Below are positions 156 through 7,679 of a DNA stretch of 59,600 bases, piece by piece. The translations under genes were made by a program, and so were the position numbers. The notes beneath the pieces were generated by a model. It was not told the origin of the DNA. It saw only the letters and a program-made list of their open reading frames with translations, and ran no database searches. How positions within the stretch are numbered: the first letter of the stretch is position 1; each line of letters starts with the position of its first letter. Location of the stretch: positions 88,578 through 148,177 of the forward strand of contig JAFYOR010000064.1 of the NCBI GenBank assembly GCA_017547805.1, written 5' to 3'. This stretch comes from Clostridia bacterium. GTDB taxonomy: Bacteria; Bacillota; Clostridia; Christensenellales; Aristaeellaceae.

Positions 156-2048
156 ATGAAGAAGCTTATCTCTCTGCTTCTGGCGATCGCCATGGTTCTG
201 TCCATGACTGCTGCTTTCGCTGAGAACACCGCTGAGAAGGGCACTGTCATCTACGGTTCTTCTACCGAGATCGGCGGCGACTTCGCTCCGGGCGCCTGGT
301 GGACCAACAACGCCACCGACAAGATGATCCGTGACATGACCAACGATTACTTCGTGACCACCACCAACCAGGGCGGTCAGTACGTGATCAACGAGACTGT
401 CTGCGGCGGTCTGTCCAGCGTTGTCAATCCGGACGGCTCCAAGACCTTCACCGTGAAGATCAACGAGGGCCTGACCTACAACAACGGCGAAGCCATCACC
501 GCGAAGGACTTCGTGTGGCCGATGGTCTTCGCGTGCTCCCCGGTTGCGACCGAGGTCGGCGCGAAGCTGACTGGCTACCTGACCTACGTCGGCGGCCAGG
601 ACTACTATGACGGCGCTGCCGCTGCGGTCTCCGGCGTCCGCCTGATCGACGAGTACACCTACTCCGTGACCATCGTTGCGGACAAGATCCCGTACTTCTT
701 CGATATGGCTTACGTTGCTGACCATCCGTTCTCCATCAAGTACTGGCTGGGCGACGCTGTCGAGCTCAAGGACGACGGCGAGGGCGCCTACATCGCTGGT
801 CTGACCAAGGAAGCCGTTGAAGCGCAGCTCGAGTTCGCTCGCTTCCACGCTGGTGAGGACCGCGTCTCTGCTGGTCCGTACAACCTCGTCGAGTACGACA
901 AGGCTGCTCTCCAGGCGACCTTCGTCATCAACGAGAACTACGCCGGCAACTTCGAAGGCCAGAAGCCGTCCATCGAGAAGGTCGTTATCGTGAAGGCTGA
1001 AGACGCCACCTGGGCTGACCAGATCAAGACCGGCGCGTTCAACTTCTACGACACCATCACCGATGGTTCCCAGATCAACACTGCGCTTGACATCATCGAG
1101 GCCGGCGGCTTCGAGTATGTTGAGTTCAACCGTGCCGGCTACGGCATGCTGAACTTCCAGTGTGACTTCGGCCCGACCCAGTTCGAGGCTGTCCGTCACG
1201 CCGTTGCTCTCCTGCTTGACCGCAACGAGTTTGCTAACACCTTCTGCCAGGGCTGGGGCGGCGTCGTCAACGGTCCGTACGGCACTGGCCTGTGGCAGGC
1301 TCAGGAGGCTGAGGAGTGGCTCGAGAACACCCTGAACTCCTACGCTTACGATCCGGAGCTGGCTGTTGAGACCCTGGTCGCCGACGGCTGGATCTACAAT
1401 GCTGACGGTTCCGAGTGGACCGAGGGCAACGTCCGTCACAAGAAGGTTACCGCTGTTGAGGCTGGCGACTACGTCCACAACGTGACCCTGGCCGATGGCA
1501 CCATCCTGATGCCGCTGATCATCGAGTGGTCCTCCTCCGAGAACAACTCCGTTTCCGAGCTCCTCAACGTCATGCTGGCTCAGGGCGAGCAGACCAAGGC
1601 TGCTGGCGTCCAGATCAACCAGAACGTCATGACCTTCACCGAGCTGCTCAACTACTACTATCGTGACGGTTCCCAGGGCGACAAGTACCTGGTTCCGACC
1701 TACGGCATGTTCAACCTGGCCACCAACTTCACCCCGGCCTACGACATGTCCTACGAGTGGACTCAGGATCCGGACATGGTTGCTCAGGGCTACAACCTGA
1801 ACCGCCTGTACAACGATTCCCTCGACGCGCTGACCATGAACATGGTTTACGGCGTTGACTCCACCGATCCGACCACCTACATGGCGTACTGGAAGGCGTA
1901 CATCATGCTGTGGAATGACATTCTGCCGCAGATCCCGCTCTACTCCAACGTGTACATCACCCTGTATCCGGATTGGCTCGAGGGCTATGAGCAGGATTCC
2001 TTCTGGGATTTCAATCAGGCGATCCTCTACGCCACCGTTGCTGAGTAA
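156..2048 (+). CDS. Oligopeptide ABC transporter substrate-binding protein
   Basis: 630-residue family-5 (SBP_bac_5) extracellular solute receptor that would capture peptides and hand them to the permeases encoded downstream. The N-terminus is a classic signal peptide (MKKLISLLLAIAMVLSMTAAFA) with likely cleavage after AFA near residue 22. There is no lipobox cysteine, which is unusual for a monoderm, where such receptors are normally lipid-anchored. The start follows AAGGAGGAT at good spacing. Codon choice is strongly restricted (AAC, TAC, TTC, GAG, GGC), as in highly expressed genes. The peptide specificity cannot be read from the sequence. It is first in an operon with two permeases, two ATPases and a small membrane protein. 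Confidence 0.93.
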   Translation: MKKLISLLLAIAMVLSMTAAFAENTAEKGTVIYGSSTEIGGDFAPGAWWTNNATDKMIRDMTNDYFVTTTNQGGQYVINETVCGGLSSVVNPDGSKTFTVKINEGLTYNNGEAITAKDFVWPMVFACSPVATEVGAKLTGYLTYVGGQDYYDGAAAAVSGVRLIDEYTYSVTIVADKIPYFFDMAYVADHPFSIKYWLGDAVELKDDGEGAYIAGLTKEAVEAQLEFARFHAGEDRVSAGPYNLVEYDKAALQATFVINENYAGNFEGQKPSIEKVVIVKAEDATWADQIKTGAFNFYDTITDGSQINTALDIIEAGGFEYVEFNRAGYGMLNFQCDFGPTQFEAVRHAVALLLDRNEFANTFCQGWGGVVNGPYGTGLWQAQEAEEWLENTLNSYAYDPELAVETLVADGWIYNADGSEWTEGNVRHKKVTAVEAGDYVHNVTLADGTILMPLIIEWSSSENNSVSELLNVMLAQGEQTKAAGVQINQNVMTFTELLNYYYRDGSQGDKYLVPTYGMFNLATNFTPAYDMSYEWTQDPDMVAQGYNLNRLYNDSLDALTMNMVYGVDSTDPTTYMAYWKAYIMLWNDILPQIPLYSNVYITLYPDWLEGYEQDSFWDFNQAILYATVAE

Positions 2049-2168: not shown

Positions 2169-2254
2169 GACGAGGGGCGTTCTGCCGCGAGAGTAAAGGC
2201 AGAGTCCTTGTTCCGTATCGTACAAAACGACCAAACTAAGAGAGGATGGATGAG

Positions 2255-3277
<1,023 letters not shown>

Positions 3278-3293: not shown

Positions 3294-5150
3294 ATGAGCA
3301 AAAACAAAAAAGAATTCTTCCTCGTTCGCTGGTTCAAGCGCATGTTCCTGGGCGCTCGTCCGGAGCTGTCCATGGAGGAAGCTGAGAAGATCCAGACGCC
3401 GATGCGTCAGATGATCTCCAACTTTGTGCATAAGCCGCTGGCGATGACGGGCCTGATTGTGTTCCTCGCGATCTTTGCCTTCGTCATGATCGGTCCGAAG
3501 TACTGGGTGCTGGATCTGTCCGAGCAGGATGCGACCCTGACCAACCTCCCGCCGAGCAGCAACATGATGACCGTGCCGGAAGCGATGCTCAAGGCCGGTA
3601 TCGCGGATATCGCTGCGGGCAACACCTACGGCATCGGCACCGACGTCAATGGTGAGCTTTACATCTGGGGTCATACCCGCATTACCGAAAAGATCGACAT
3701 CGCTAACGTGCCGGACGAAGTCCGCGCGGCGGATCTGTCCATGATCGCTGCTGGTACGGACCACGTCGTCGCGCTGGCGGAAGACGGTCAGGTCTATGTC
3801 TGGGGCAACACCCGCCTCAAGCAGGACAAGTTCGGCAACGACATGGAAAAGGCCATGAAGAAGGGCGGCAAGGACTGGGAGGTTATCCAGCTGGAAGCCA
3901 GCAACCAGTTCTCCGCGATCGTTACCGCTGATGGCAACTGCTATCTCTGGGGCAACGGCAACATGGCCGACGTCAAGATCAAGTCCAAGTTTCAGGGCAA
4001 GGTCGCCAAGGTGGCCCTGACCGAGAACGAATACATCGCGCTGCTGAACGACGGCAGCGTCGCCTACACCGGCAACAAGGATAAGAACTCTCCCTTCGCC
4101 CGTATCCCGGACGAAGTCAAGGGCAAGAACAGCGCTGTGGACGTTGCGGCTACTGCGAAATCCGTTGCCGCGCTGACCACGGATGGCAAGGTTGTTGTCT
4201 GGGGTAGTGCTTCCAAGGGCGAAAACAACGTGCCGGAATTCGGCGCGAAGGTCACCAAGCTTTACGGCGGCCGCTTCCATTACACCGCGCTGCTTGAAGA
4301 TGGCAGCGTCGTGACCTGGGGCGACAACAAGTATAAGCAGCTCGACGTTCCGGAAGAGCTTGCCTCCGTCAAGATCGATCGTATGTTCATCTCCAACTAT
4401 CAGAACTATGCGCTGGATACCGATGGCAAGCTGCACACCTGGGGACTGAAGGGCTTCACGCTGGGCACGGACGGCCTCGGCCGCGACATGCTGACCCGTA
4501 TCGTCAACGGCGGTAAGGTCACCATGACCGTCGGTGCGATCTCCGTCGTCATTGCCACCATCCTGGGCATCATTCTGGGTGGTACCGCCGGTTACTTCGG
4601 CGGCAAGCTGGACATGCTGATCATGCGCGTGGCGGAAATCGTCGGCGGTCTGCCGTTCATTCCGTTCGCGATGATCCTCTCCGCGGTCATCGGCACGCGC
4701 CTTGACCCGACGCAGAGAATGTATCTGATCATGGTGGTTCTGGGCGTCCTTTCCTGGGTGCCGACCTGCCGTCTCGTCCGTTCCCAGATTCTGGCGCAGC
4801 GCGAAATGGAATACGTCACCGCGGCGAAGGCCATGGGCATCAAGGAGAGCACGATCGTGTTCCGTCACATCCTGCCCAACGTCTTCTCCCTGCTGATCGT
4901 CTCCATGACGCTCGACTTTGCGACCTGCATGCTGACCGAATCCACGCTGTCCTACCTCGGCTTCGGCATTCCGCTGCCGACCCCGACCTGGGGCAACCTG
5001 CTCAACGGCGCGAACAACTCCATCGTCATCCAGCAGTACTGGTGGCAGTGGGTGTTCCCGGCGACCATTTTCGGTATCTGTACCATTTGTATCAACCTGA
5101 TCGGCGACGGTCTGCGCGATGCGCTTGACCCGAAGACCATCGGACGCTAA
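3294..5150 (+). CDS. DppC/OppC-type permease with inserted RCC1-like beta-propeller
   Basis: 618 residues, about twice the usual ~300 for this family. Residues ~48-70 form membrane helix 1. Residues ~100-385 are an insert of seven RCC1-type repeats, each centred on a Y/V-x-W-G-like strand (YIWGHT, YVWGNT, YLWGNG, AYTGNK, VVWGSA, VTWGDN, HTWGLK). After it the normal DppC sequence resumes at LGTDGLGRDMLTRIVNGG with the remaining membrane helices and the EAA loop (YVTAAKAMGIKESTIVFRHI). The insert replaces the short loop between helices 1 and 2, so it should face outward. The start follows AAGGAGG at 3279-3285. The fusion is intact, with no frameshift. Receptor docking or signal sensing by the propeller is inference. 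Confidence 0.93.
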   Translation: MSKNKKEFFLVRWFKRMFLGARPELSMEEAEKIQTPMRQMISNFVHKPLAMTGLIVFLAIFAFVMIGPKYWVLDLSEQDATLTNLPPSSNMMTVPEAMLKAGIADIAAGNTYGIGTDVNGELYIWGHTRITEKIDIANVPDEVRAADLSMIAAGTDHVVALAEDGQVYVWGNTRLKQDKFGNDMEKAMKKGGKDWEVIQLEASNQFSAIVTADGNCYLWGNGNMADVKIKSKFQGKVAKVALTENEYIALLNDGSVAYTGNKDKNSPFARIPDEVKGKNSAVDVAATAKSVAALTTDGKVVVWGSASKGENNVPEFGAKVTKLYGGRFHYTALLEDGSVVTWGDNKYKQLDVPEELASVKIDRMFISNYQNYALDTDGKLHTWGLKGFTLGTDGLGRDMLTRIVNGGKVTMTVGAISVVIATILGIILGGTAGYFGGKLDMLIMRVAEIVGGLPFIPFAMILSAVIGTRLDPTQRMYLIMVVLGVLSWVPTCRLVRSQILAQREMEYVTAAKAMGIKESTIVFRHILPNVFSLLIVSMTLDFATCMLTESTLSYLGFGIPLPTPTWGNLLNGANNSIVIQQYWWQWVFPATIFGICTICINLIGDGLRDALDPKTIGR

Positions 5151-5164
5151 GAAGGAGGTAAATT

Positions 5165-6157
5165 ATGGCGCTTCTTGAAATGAAAAATCTGAAGACCTTC
5201 TTTACCACCAAGCGCGGCGTGGTCAAGGCGGTCAACGGCGTTTCCTACAGCGTTGACGCTGGCAGAACGCTCGGCGTCGTCGGCGAGTCCGGTTCCGGCA
5301 AGAGCGTTTCTGCGATGAGCATGCTCAAGCTGCTGGACGGCAATGGCTACATCGAGGGCGGCGAGATCATCTTTGACGGTCAGGACCTGACCAAGCTCTC
5401 CATTCCGCAGATGCAGAAGATCCGCGGCAACGATATTTCCGTCATCTTCCAGGAGCCGATGACGAGCCTGAACCCGGTTTTCACCATTGAAAAGCAGGTT
5501 TCCGAGCCGTTCATCATCCATCAGGGCATGAGCAAGGAAGAGGCGAAGAAGAAGGTCATCGAAATGCTGGCCGACGTCAAGATTCCCAATCCGGAAGTCG
5601 TCGCCAAGCAGTATCCGCATCAGCTTTCCGGCGGCATGCGTCAGCGCGTCATGATCGCGATGGCGCTGGCCTGCAAGCCGAAGCTCCTCATCGCGGACGA
5701 GCCGACCACCGCGCTGGACGTGACGATTCAGGCGCAGATCCTCAAGCTCATGAACGACCTCAAGCGTGAGCACGGCACCTCCATTCTCTTCATCACCCAT
5801 GACCTTGGCGTTATTGCCCAGATGGCGGACGACGTTGCCGTCATGTACTGCGGTCAGGTGGTTGAGATGGCGCCGGCCCGCACGATCTTCACCGACTGCG
5901 AGTTCTCCCATCCCTACACCGAGGGCCTGATGGTTTCCATCCCGCGCCTGGATACCCCGGCGGATACCCGTCTGGAGTCCATCCCGGGCGCCGTGCCGCA
6001 TCCGCTGGATCTGCCCAAGGGCTGCAAGTTTGCGCCCCGCTGCAAGTATTGCCAGCAGCGCTGCCTGGAGGAAGAGCCGGAGCTTGTCAGCGTGAGCGAG
6101 AATCAGCAGGTTCGCTGCTTCTATCCCAGAAAGGAGGAGCGCCGTGCAAACCTCTAA
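5165..6157 (+). CDS. Peptide ABC transporter ATPase, DppD/OppD family
   Basis: 330-residue cytoplasmic ATPase that drives transport. Walker A is GESGSGKS (~residues 38-45), the Q-loop is in VIFQEPMTSLNP, the signature is LSGGMRQRV, and Walker B plus D-loop is LLIADEPTTALDVT, followed by the switch histidine in FITHDLG. The C-terminus has the oligopeptide-type cysteine cluster (CKFAPRCKYCQQRC), which in relatives binds an iron-sulfur cluster. The start follows GAAGGAGG 14 nt after the permease stop. It overlaps the next ATPase gene by 14 nt. This half of the ATPase pair has normal length and no insert. Confidence 0.95.
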   Translation: MALLEMKNLKTFFTTKRGVVKAVNGVSYSVDAGRTLGVVGESGSGKSVSAMSMLKLLDGNGYIEGGEIIFDGQDLTKLSIPQMQKIRGNDISVIFQEPMTSLNPVFTIEKQVSEPFIIHQGMSKEEAKKKVIEMLADVKIPNPEVVAKQYPHQLSGGMRQRVMIAMALACKPKLLIADEPTTALDVTIQAQILKLMNDLKREHGTSILFITHDLGVIAQMADDVAVMYCGQVVEMAPARTIFTDCEFSHPYTEGLMVSIPRLDTPADTRLESIPGAVPHPLDLPKGCKFAPRCKYCQQRCLEEEPELVSVSENQQVRCFYPRKEERRANL

Positions 6158-7679
6158 TAAAGAAAAAAAGGTTCTGCTTCGCGTCAATAACCTCAAGCAG
6201 TACTTCCCGCTCAAGAAGAAGGGCCTGTTTGTCAAGGCGAACGACGGCATCACGCTGGATATCTACGAGGGCGAGACCTTCGGTCTGGTCGGCGAGTCTG
6301 GCTGCGGCAAGTCCACGCTTGGCCGTACGCTGCTGCAGCTTTATCGCCAGACGGACGGACGCTCCATGTACTATGGCCGCACGATCGAGGAGATCGCGCC
6401 CAAGTATGTGGAAAAGACGCTGAAGACGGTTGAAAAGCGCCGCGCGAAGTGGAAGACCCTTGATGCTGCGGCTGTGACTGCGCGCAAGGAATACGACGCC
6501 ATGCCCGACGGCGAGGAAAAATACAAGAAGAGCAACGACGTCGCCAAGGCGGAAAAGGAAGCCAACGACGAGCTGCTGGATATGGCCACGCTTATCGGCG
6601 GTTTCGTCGCCATTGAGGATATCAAGGATGTCATCGCCCTGTTCCTCAAGGAGTACGGCATTGCCGTGCAGCGCAAGAAGATCCGCGAAAAGCGCGCCAC
6701 GGTTCAGCTGGATTACGACGACGCTGTGTACAGCGCGGCGAAGGCCGAAAAGCCGGATGCGGCGAAGAGCGACAGCCTGAAGAAGAAGCTCGACGCGTTT
6801 GACGCGCAGATCAAGGAATTTGACGCTCAGCTTGCCGAGGTTCGCGCCCAGATTGATGAAATGCGCAAGCCGCACAAGGGCAATGCGGAGTTTGAAAAGT
6901 ACGAAGCGCTGCGCGATGAGGGCATTGACCTTGCGCGCCTTGAGTACCCGGAGATCCGCCTGCTGCGCAGCGACCTGCAGCTGATCTTCCAGGATCCGTA
7001 TTCCTCCCTGAATCCGCGCATGACCGTCGGCAACATCATCGGCGAAGGCCTGCTGGCGCATAACTTCTTCAAGAAGAACGACGAGCGCATGCAGGAATAC
7101 ATCGTCAAGACGATGGAGGACGCCGGCCTTGCCAGCTACTTCCTGCACCGTTATCCGCATCAGTTCTCCGGCGGTCAGCGTCAGCGCATCGGCATCGCCC
7201 GCAGCCTGGCTGTCAAGCCGAAGTTCGTCGTCTGCGACGAGGCGGTTTCCGCGCTGGACGTGTCCATCCAGTCCCAGATCATTAACCTGCTCTACGACCT
7301 CAAGGAGCAGAGCAACCTGACCTATCTGTTCATCACGCACGACCTGTCCGTCGTCAAGTACATTTCCGACCGCATCGGCGTCATGTACCTTGGCAACATG
7401 GTTGAGCTGGCGGATACGGAGTCCCTCTTCGCCAACCCGCTGCATCCCTACACCGAGGCGCTGATGGCGGCGATTCCCACGACGGACGTCGACTCCGACA
7501 AGGAGCTGCGCATTCTGGAGGGCGACATTCCCAGCCCGGTGAATCCGCCTAAGGGCTGCAAGTTCCACACGCGCTGCAGCCGCTGCACCGAGATCTGCAA
7601 GCATGCTGAGCCGCAGTGGACCGAGATGGCGCCGGGTCACTTTGTTGCCTGCCACCATCCGCTGGAGACCAAGGAGTAA
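6144..7679 (+). CDS. DppF/OppF-type ATPase with large helical insert
   Basis: 511 residues against ~320-330 for typical relatives. Walker A (GESGCGKST, ~50-58) is followed by an extra block at about residues 84-270, rich in Lys, Glu, Asp and Ala and predicted helical or coiled-coil. The canonical fold then resumes at the Q-loop (LQLIFQDPYSSLNPR, ~279-292), signature FSGGQRQRIG, Walker B FVVCDEAVSALDVS and the C-terminal CKFHTRC cluster. All catalytic motifs are intact, so it should be active. The GTG start at 6144 follows AAGGAGGAG. The insert lies between Walker A and the Q-loop, where a short sheet and helix normally sit. Its function is unknown. Confidence 0.93.
   Translation: MQTSNKEKKVLLRVNNLKQYFPLKKKGLFVKANDGITLDIYEGETFGLVGESGCGKSTLGRTLLQLYRQTDGRSMYYGRTIEEIAPKYVEKTLKTVEKRRAKWKTLDAAAVTARKEYDAMPDGEEKYKKSNDVAKAEKEANDELLDMATLIGGFVAIEDIKDVIALFLKEYGIAVQRKKIREKRATVQLDYDDAVYSAAKAEKPDAAKSDSLKKKLDAFDAQIKEFDAQLAEVRAQIDEMRKPHKGNAEFEKYEALRDEGIDLARLEYPEIRLLRSDLQLIFQDPYSSLNPRMTVGNIIGEGLLAHNFFKKNDERMQEYIVKTMEDAGLASYFLHRYPHQFSGGQRQRIGIARSLAVKPKFVVCDEAVSALDVSIQSQIINLLYDLKEQSNLTYLFITHDLSVVKYISDRIGVMYLGNMVELADTESLFANPLHPYTEALMAAIPTTDVDSDKELRILEGDIPSPVNPPKGCKFHTRCSRCTEICKHAEPQWTEMAPGHFVACHHPLETKE

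Follow-up and report, generated by a model that had tools for sequence, protein, structure and literature searches.

Near the start of the window (the whole stretch of DNA that was analysed, 59,600 nucleotides) lies an operon of five genes, here called A, B, C, D and F in the order of their position. Its composition, an SBP_bac_5 protein together with proteins of the OppB, OppC, OppD and OppF types, fits an Opp-type importer. Shine-Dalgarno-like sequence is found at each start in the operon, and aaggaggaagaaatc precedes the ATG of the open frame 3294-5150 (+), which encodes the 618 amino acids of permease C. The operon is made up as follows:

156..2048, + strand: substrate-binding protein (A), SBP_bac_5 (Pfam, 6.1e-29), with a signal peptide without lipobox (N-terminus read)
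2246..3277, + strand: partner permease (B) of the OppB/DppB type (BPD_transp_1, 3e-38; BPD_transp_1_N, 3.3e-07)
3294..5150, + strand: permease (C) of the OppC type with inserted RCC1-type repeats (Pfam, PDB sequence matches, hydropathy)
5165..6157, + strand: ATPase (D) of the OppD type (ABC_tran, 5.3e-30; oligo_HPY, 6.1e-19)
6144..7679, + strand: ATPase (F) of the OppF type, itself carrying an internal insert (ABC_tran split over two stretches; oligo_HPY, 2.4e-19)

Permease C matches OppC_N of Pfam at residues 35-87 (7.1e-08) and BPD_transp_1 at residues 425-615 (4.7e-31), both above the curated cut-offs, and its residues 384-614 match the PDB sequences of E. coli OppC (8z21, 1.6e-48) and of DppC (8z1v, 1.1e-41). 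It reaches the cut-off of no named NCBIfam equivalog, the best model being that of oligopeptide Opp4C at 288.5 bits, under its cut-off of 350; the best NCBIfam model for permease B, a protein of 343 residues, is Opp4B, also below cut-off. Judged from these matches, permease C is an OppC/DppC-type channel subunit of an Opp-type peptide ABC importer. The label “DppC-type” given in the first-pass annotation of this DNA is loose, since the closest NCBIfam model, although below its cut-off, is Opp4C.

The insert between helices 1 and 2

Hydropathy predicts six helices in permease C, with residues 68-408 forming a single loop from helix 1 to helix 2. The coupling loop is placed inside on the basis of charge and homology (the N-terminus has 10 K/R and 5 D/E). 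Within the helix 1-2 loop, and bounded by NLPPS and LGTDGLGRD, is an insert holding approximately 300 residues of RCC1-type repeats, which end immediately N-terminal to GTDGLGRD. Helix 1 and the GTD motif are separated by 322 residues, compared with 21-31 in ordinary OppC relatives, in keeping with the expectation that this loop is normally short. The protein can be divided into the following parts:

3438..3494, + strand: membrane helix 1, residues 49-67 (hydropathy; OppC_N at residues 35-87)
3573..4451, + strand: RCC1-type seven-repeat domain, residues 94-386, including an N-terminal VPEAM linker-like element (boundaries by eye)
3594..3671, + strand: repeat 1, residues 101-126
3729..3806, + strand: repeat 2, residues 146-171
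3876..3953, + strand: repeat 3, residues 195-220
3996..4073, + strand: repeat 4, residues 235-260, with a TG end; no co-variation with the binding protein
4128..4205, + strand: repeat 5, residues 279-304; no co-variation with the binding protein
4245..4322, + strand: repeat 6, residues 318-343
4368..4445, + strand: repeat 7, residues 359-384, continuous with the permease core
4455..5147, + strand: permease core, residues 388-618, with the GTDGLGRD motif, helices 2-6 and the coupling loop (Pfam, PDB matches, hydropathy)

The insert matches RCC1_2 of Pfam in three stretches (1.5e-30; 104.6 bits against a cut-off of 22) and the “RCC1-like domain” WD40_RLD with an E-value of 6.1e-35 and 121.6 bits, short of the curated 150; it does not reach the cut-off of the Pfam RCC1 model (PF00415). 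Among PDB sequences its best match is BLIP-II (1jtd, 8.6e-23), and UVR8, HERC2 and RCC1 also match parts of it. Repeat anchors fall at residues 126, 171, 220, 260, 304, 343 and 384, at a spacing of 39-49, and the seven 27-residue repeats have a mean pairwise identity of 27.3% (1000 shuffles: mean 6.6%, maximum 10.2%). Seven W-G-centred repeats had been claimed earlier; the number seven holds, but WG ends only six repeats and TG the fourth.

By eye, the sequence TVPEAM ahead of repeat 1 resembles the inter-repeat linkers NVPDEV, RIPDEV and DVPEEL, and no VPEAM-like element is seen after repeat 7. Among 97 relatives, after thinning to 90% identity, at least 80% retain the proline of the VPEAM element. 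An N-terminal strand closing the ring would explain why such an element stands before repeat 1 and none after repeat 7. The insert is predicted to be a seven-repeat RCC1-type propeller with a presumably closed ring, and both the architecture of a propeller within a permease and its outward placement, as first proposed, are borne out by Pfam and hydropathy, the propeller itself by sequence homology. In blades 1 to 7, the loop that joins strands one and two has conservation values of 0.56, 0.77, 0.66, 0.47, 0.53, 0.71 and 0.66; these loops are best conserved on the arc 6-7-1-2-3, with the exception of blade 1 (0.56), which is near blade 5 (0.53).

Distribution of the propeller permeases and other contents of the slot

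A related insert was found in 121 distinct sequences (E-value at most 1.9e-15), in samples that were picked by similarity to permease C and are not a census, and from which relatives lacking the expected GTD pattern, or duplicating the last 400 residues of another, were dropped. Of 308 genomes in the window's family, 59 match over nearly the full length, 4 more partially or in split form, and 11 in the permease core only (59 + 4 + 11 = 74 genomes at 1e-60). Near-full-length matches occur in 34 of 396 genomes of the order, and 16 of 391 genomes of the class besides the window's own match at 1e-70, two of these being single-contig genomes and one (G883) matching over residues 199-615 only, with its insert read by eye; the family, order and class samples overlap, those of the order and the class being even subsamples of larger groups. 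Of 100 loci found, 80 were kept, and 51 of these come from named records. The named records are MAGs that carry the labels Clostridia or Clostridiales, Oscillospiraceae, Erysipelotrichaceae, Solobacterium, Tissierellia and Bacillota, plus a few labelled Lachnospiraceae, Anaerolineaceae or Chloroflexi. The architecture turns up repeatedly among anaerobes and gut bacteria. The plasmids searched gave no propeller permease match at 1e-60. That the insert is an assembly or frameshift artefact can be dismissed with near certainty: the draft genome of the window is fragmented (113 contigs, 83% complete), but the search of related genomes suggested by the first-pass annotation finds the same insert in an open frame in numerous independent assemblies, among them G692 and G710, which are single-contig genomes.

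The neighbours of the propeller permease were scored in a linkage set of 164 fetched stretches, some included twice as they occur in two collections, wherever the stretch was long enough. The binding protein A is present in 76 of 77 cases (the sole exception in the set being L087), B in 150 of 150, D in 141 of 141 and F in 62 of 62, where it should be noted that OppD and OppF profiles cross-score and the test separates D from F poorly; at L176 and L177 it is the F profile that gives either ATPase its best score. One locus, L172 (G455:C28), has two adjoining binding-protein genes ahead of the propeller permease, while the permease is split over two open frames at L083 and in G187:C21, and the binding protein at L052. 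The OppF-type protein of the window (6144-7679) has an internal charged, by eye coiled-coil-looking insert that splits its ABC_tran match. OppF frame length varies widely across propeller operons, and no link between this insert and the propeller is claimed.

The helix 1-2 slot also has other contents. In 19 other permeases it holds 46-450 residues without detectable similarity to the propeller insert. An OppC paralogue in the window's own genome (L004:1486-3159, - strand, G000:C30) carries a bacterial SH3 domain in the slot (SH3_3 of Pfam, 2e-06; 28.3 bits, cut-off 27), and the own-genome paralogues L002 and L003 have roughly 50 and 100 slot residues there (by eye). The OppC relatives L117-L121, L123-L126, L189, L190 and L192-L196 have slot inserts of 224-450 residues whose sequence, to the eye, suggests repeating helix-strand-strand units of some 40 residues each. 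Six of these were scanned (L117, L118, L190, L193, L195 and L196), with no above-cut-off Pfam match within the insert and weak matches such as S_layer_N (0.011, in L190).

In an unrooted tree of 86 permease cores, into which 35 of the 121 propeller rows were taken, the propeller class makes up one side of one branch (100/99), and the class with unnamed repeats one side of another (97/83); the positions of L004 and L003 are unsure, both being long branches. Judged from the single propeller branch and the separate branch of the unnamed repeats, the propeller was probably gained once, and the helix 1-2 slot of OppC has been occupied on more than one occasion. That the propeller was inserted several times independently is unsupported, given its single branch side among the 86 cores.

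Co-variation of the insert with the binding protein

At 1e-50, the window's binding protein is matched in 40 of the 396 order genomes. These are 33 of the 34 genomes with a near-full-length propeller permease, G272, which has a permease fragment only, and six others; the exception among the 34 is G417, where the gene lies near a contig end. Nine further binding-protein matches were followed up in fetched stretches. Eight of them (L243-L245 and L247-L251) are distant relatives of 27-33% identity, with no OppC in the 9-13 kb stretch, and the ninth (L246) is accompanied by an OppC whose insert, judged by eye, is RCC1-like but divergent.

Co-variation was measured as the partial correlation of pairwise distances, with rate-matched columns of B, C and D plus the core as controls, and in three treatments. 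From 77 complete A-B-C-D operons with different C, 73 were cut into parts (L058, L063, L169 and L185 being dropped for mismatch to the GTD pattern) and reduced to 59 representatives, among which L037 represents the operon of the window. The insert and the binding protein have a partial correlation of 0.45-0.59 over the 59 operons (bootstrap 5-95%, 0.40-0.63), 0.40-0.45 in subfamily 1 (34 operons) and 0.56-0.69 in subfamily 2 (25 operons); permuted labels reached the observed value in 0 of 1000 trials per set (one treatment), in a permutation that ignores shared ancestry. For the binding protein and B the values are 0.30-0.39 in the full set and 0.22-0.39 over all sets, and for the binding protein and either the core or ATPase D they are at most 0.08 in the full set and -0.38 to 0.12 over all sets. 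The insert also co-varies with ATPase D (full set, 0.27-0.29; subfamily 2, 0.26-0.32), and since D is cytosolic and cannot touch it, part of the co-variation between insert and binding protein is background.

Earlier runs with 35 operons had given 0.33-0.59 for insert and binding protein in the full set, and up to 0.44 for insert and D (up to 0.46 in subfamily 2). In the rank treatment of the full set, the value for insert and D (0.43) exceeded that for insert and binding protein (0.33); among 15 operons of subfamily 1, B and the binding protein (0.56-0.65) exceeded insert and binding protein (0.37-0.45); and the largest partial correlation in one run was between permeases B and C (0.76). With more operons the value for insert and D fell, and that for insert and binding protein stayed.

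Blade by blade, co-variation with the binding protein is 0.45, 0.30, 0.32, 0.05, -0.01, 0.28 and 0.37 for blades 1 to 7. When pooled, blades 6-7-1-2-3 reach 0.59 (bootstrap 5-95%, 0.47-0.69) and blades 4-5 only 0.02 (-0.12 to 0.18), in a grouping that was suggested by, and then tested on, the same data; against D both blade sets have the same value, 0.18 each. Poorer alignment of blades 4 and 5 may be a factor, as it would lower their values. Longer inserts go with longer binding proteins (Spearman 0.66 over the 59 operons, with shared ancestry left in). In part of subfamily 2 (L130, L132-L134, L147, L148, L150-L154 and L156) the binding-protein frame has 730-785 residues, with an extra N-terminal stretch seen by eye, and is paired with a permease insert that is likewise longer.

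Possible roles of the propeller

With a little better than even confidence, we read the propeller as an extracytoplasmic docking platform for the operon's own binding protein. It would stand on the outside of the channel, close to the gate through which substrate enters, as an addition to the permease on which the binding protein could dock, and the co-variation suggests that the two may make physical contact. Blades 6, 7, 1, 2 and 3, on the part of the ring closest to where it is inserted, would face the binding protein, with blades 4 and 5 pointing away from it, and docking would presumably aid substrate delivery. In the structure of E. coli DppABCDF, both permeases are capped by the binding protein, whose cleft receives a scoop motif formed by the helix 1-2 region of DppB, and activity requires binding protein and ATP together (PMC12136057). 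An AlphaFold model of the pneumococcal Ami importer has the helix 1-2 coil of AmiD contacting lobe 2 of the binding protein, and two extracellular domains of AmiC that could clamp it (PMC11192437). Docking is favoured by this placement in Dpp and Ami. Partner B has kept its own N-terminal region (BPD_transp_1_N), so that the ring would probably add to the usual docking. A folded ring in the helix 1-2 loop would sit beside the docked binding protein, where it could raise affinity, orient the binding protein or sense its loaded state. Ordinary OppC proteins work without such a domain, which counts against this reading. Of the three roles put forward in the first-pass annotation, that of holding the receptor is the one favoured by co-variation, and filtering the substrate or contacting another surface factor would be less likely alternatives.

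It is improbable, but worth weighing, that the transported molecule is itself a ligand of the propeller, which would then act as a filter or as a second capture site before the gate. Beta-propellers often bind ligands, and the position on the outer face near the gate, taken by homology, is a suitable one. A shared substrate alone could make propeller and binding protein co-vary, so that co-variation does not separate this role from docking. On the other hand, the conserved positions sit in loops of several blades, and BLIP-II, UVR8, HERC2 and RCC1, the nearest relatives with a solved structure, mostly act on proteins.

A similarly low probability is given to contact with another surface partner, be it the cell wall, a surface layer, a protease or a protein of another cell. 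RCC1 folds bind proteins, the own-genome paralogue L004 has in the same slot an SH3_3 domain, of a bacterial SH3 type often linked to the cell wall, and blades 4-5, which show no tie to the binding protein, could hold something else. However, the largest pairwise value of the insert over the 59 operons is that with the binding protein, and several hosts and gut sites are represented among the relatives, some of which also bear MAG names that we take to denote digester samples, making a single host partner unlikely. A tentative and rather doubtful extension of the docking reading would combine the two: the OppC helix 1-2 loop may be an exchangeable slot, with RCC1 propeller, SH3 domain and unnamed repeats as separate receptor platforms, and with the binding protein held by the propeller arc and a further surface partner recruited by blades 4-5. 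If this were true, the importer would be wired to something besides its own binding protein.

It seems quite unlikely that the insert only stabilises the protein passively or is carried along as a neutral passenger. Its conservation (0.556) is lower than that of helices 2-6 (0.765), but it is near that of the helix 1 region (0.587), the loop of one blade (0.77) equals the core average, and no insert-less permease is found inside the propeller branch among the 86 rows, chosen by similarity to permease C.

Still harder to credit is a propeller that replaces the lipid anchor of the binding protein, holding a soluble protein at the surface of a cell without outer membrane. The window's binding protein does lack a lipobox, as do those of seven of eight operons in its family (the eighth being possible), and none of 30 family genomes gave an Omp85 match. 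Propeller and lipobox nevertheless coexist in other families, where the operons keep it (21 with a lipobox and 9 possible, of 30), which weakens the idea. In 39 named-record operons there are 18 with a lipobox, 2 possible and 19 with none, by a pattern search in which L086, one of the 18, looks wrong by eye and L050 is mislocated. Moreover, of the other four full SBP_bac_5 proteins of the genome three have no lipobox and the fourth (L159) is ambiguous, and one of them (L157) is on the same contig as an OppC without a large insert (L002). The full SBP_bac_5 proteins of this genome (156-2048 and L157-L160) are thus alike in having no clear lipobox. Loss of the lipoprotein pathway in the family is unsupported, as Lgt is found in 117 of 120 genomes (weakly in the window's own, 5.7e-17), and so is an outer membrane as the reason for soluble binding proteins, with Omp85 at 0 of 30.

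The docking reading can be set against known systems. Permease C is like OppC and DppC of E. coli (8z21, 8z1v) in its six helices, OppC_N and BPD_transp_1 domains, GTDxxGRD motif and five-gene operon, and unlike them in having around 300 extra RCC1-type residues where ordinary relatives have 21-31. BLIP-II, RCC1, UVR8 and HERC2 share the RCC1-type repeats, but their propellers are soluble proteins or parts of other proteins, whereas the present one sits in a membrane channel. The P2 loop of MalF, in the maltose importer, is likewise an extracytoplasmic part of a permease that meets the binding protein (MalE), although importer type, loop and fold all differ from those of the propeller insert. 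AmiC, for its part, is an OppB-side subunit, whereas here the insert is in the OppC-side subunit. The large extracellular domains of AmiC (residues 31-278) resemble the docking idea in being proposed from a model to clamp the binding protein, and no propeller is described there in the available part of that paper (PMC11192437). By analogy, a docking insert would probably work like MalF P2 or the AmiC domains.

Permease parts that meet the binding protein are known, as are RCC1 propellers, and it is their combination that appears undescribed. The literature searched, with little subscription content and no preprints, yielded among the papers listed no description of an RCC1 domain or propeller in a permease or importer, and the remark in the first-pass annotation that there was no characterised example stands uncontradicted within that range. 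Peptide importers are major bacterial gates for nutrients and signals, and a question that still stands is how a binding protein locates its channel. To test this, a widespread permease branch with a putative built-in protein-binding ring would offer a removable module. The unlike domains found in the same slot suggest a general way of rewiring importers. There is also a risk for annotation, in that such proteins score both as permease and as “chromosome condensation” repeats and may be misread.
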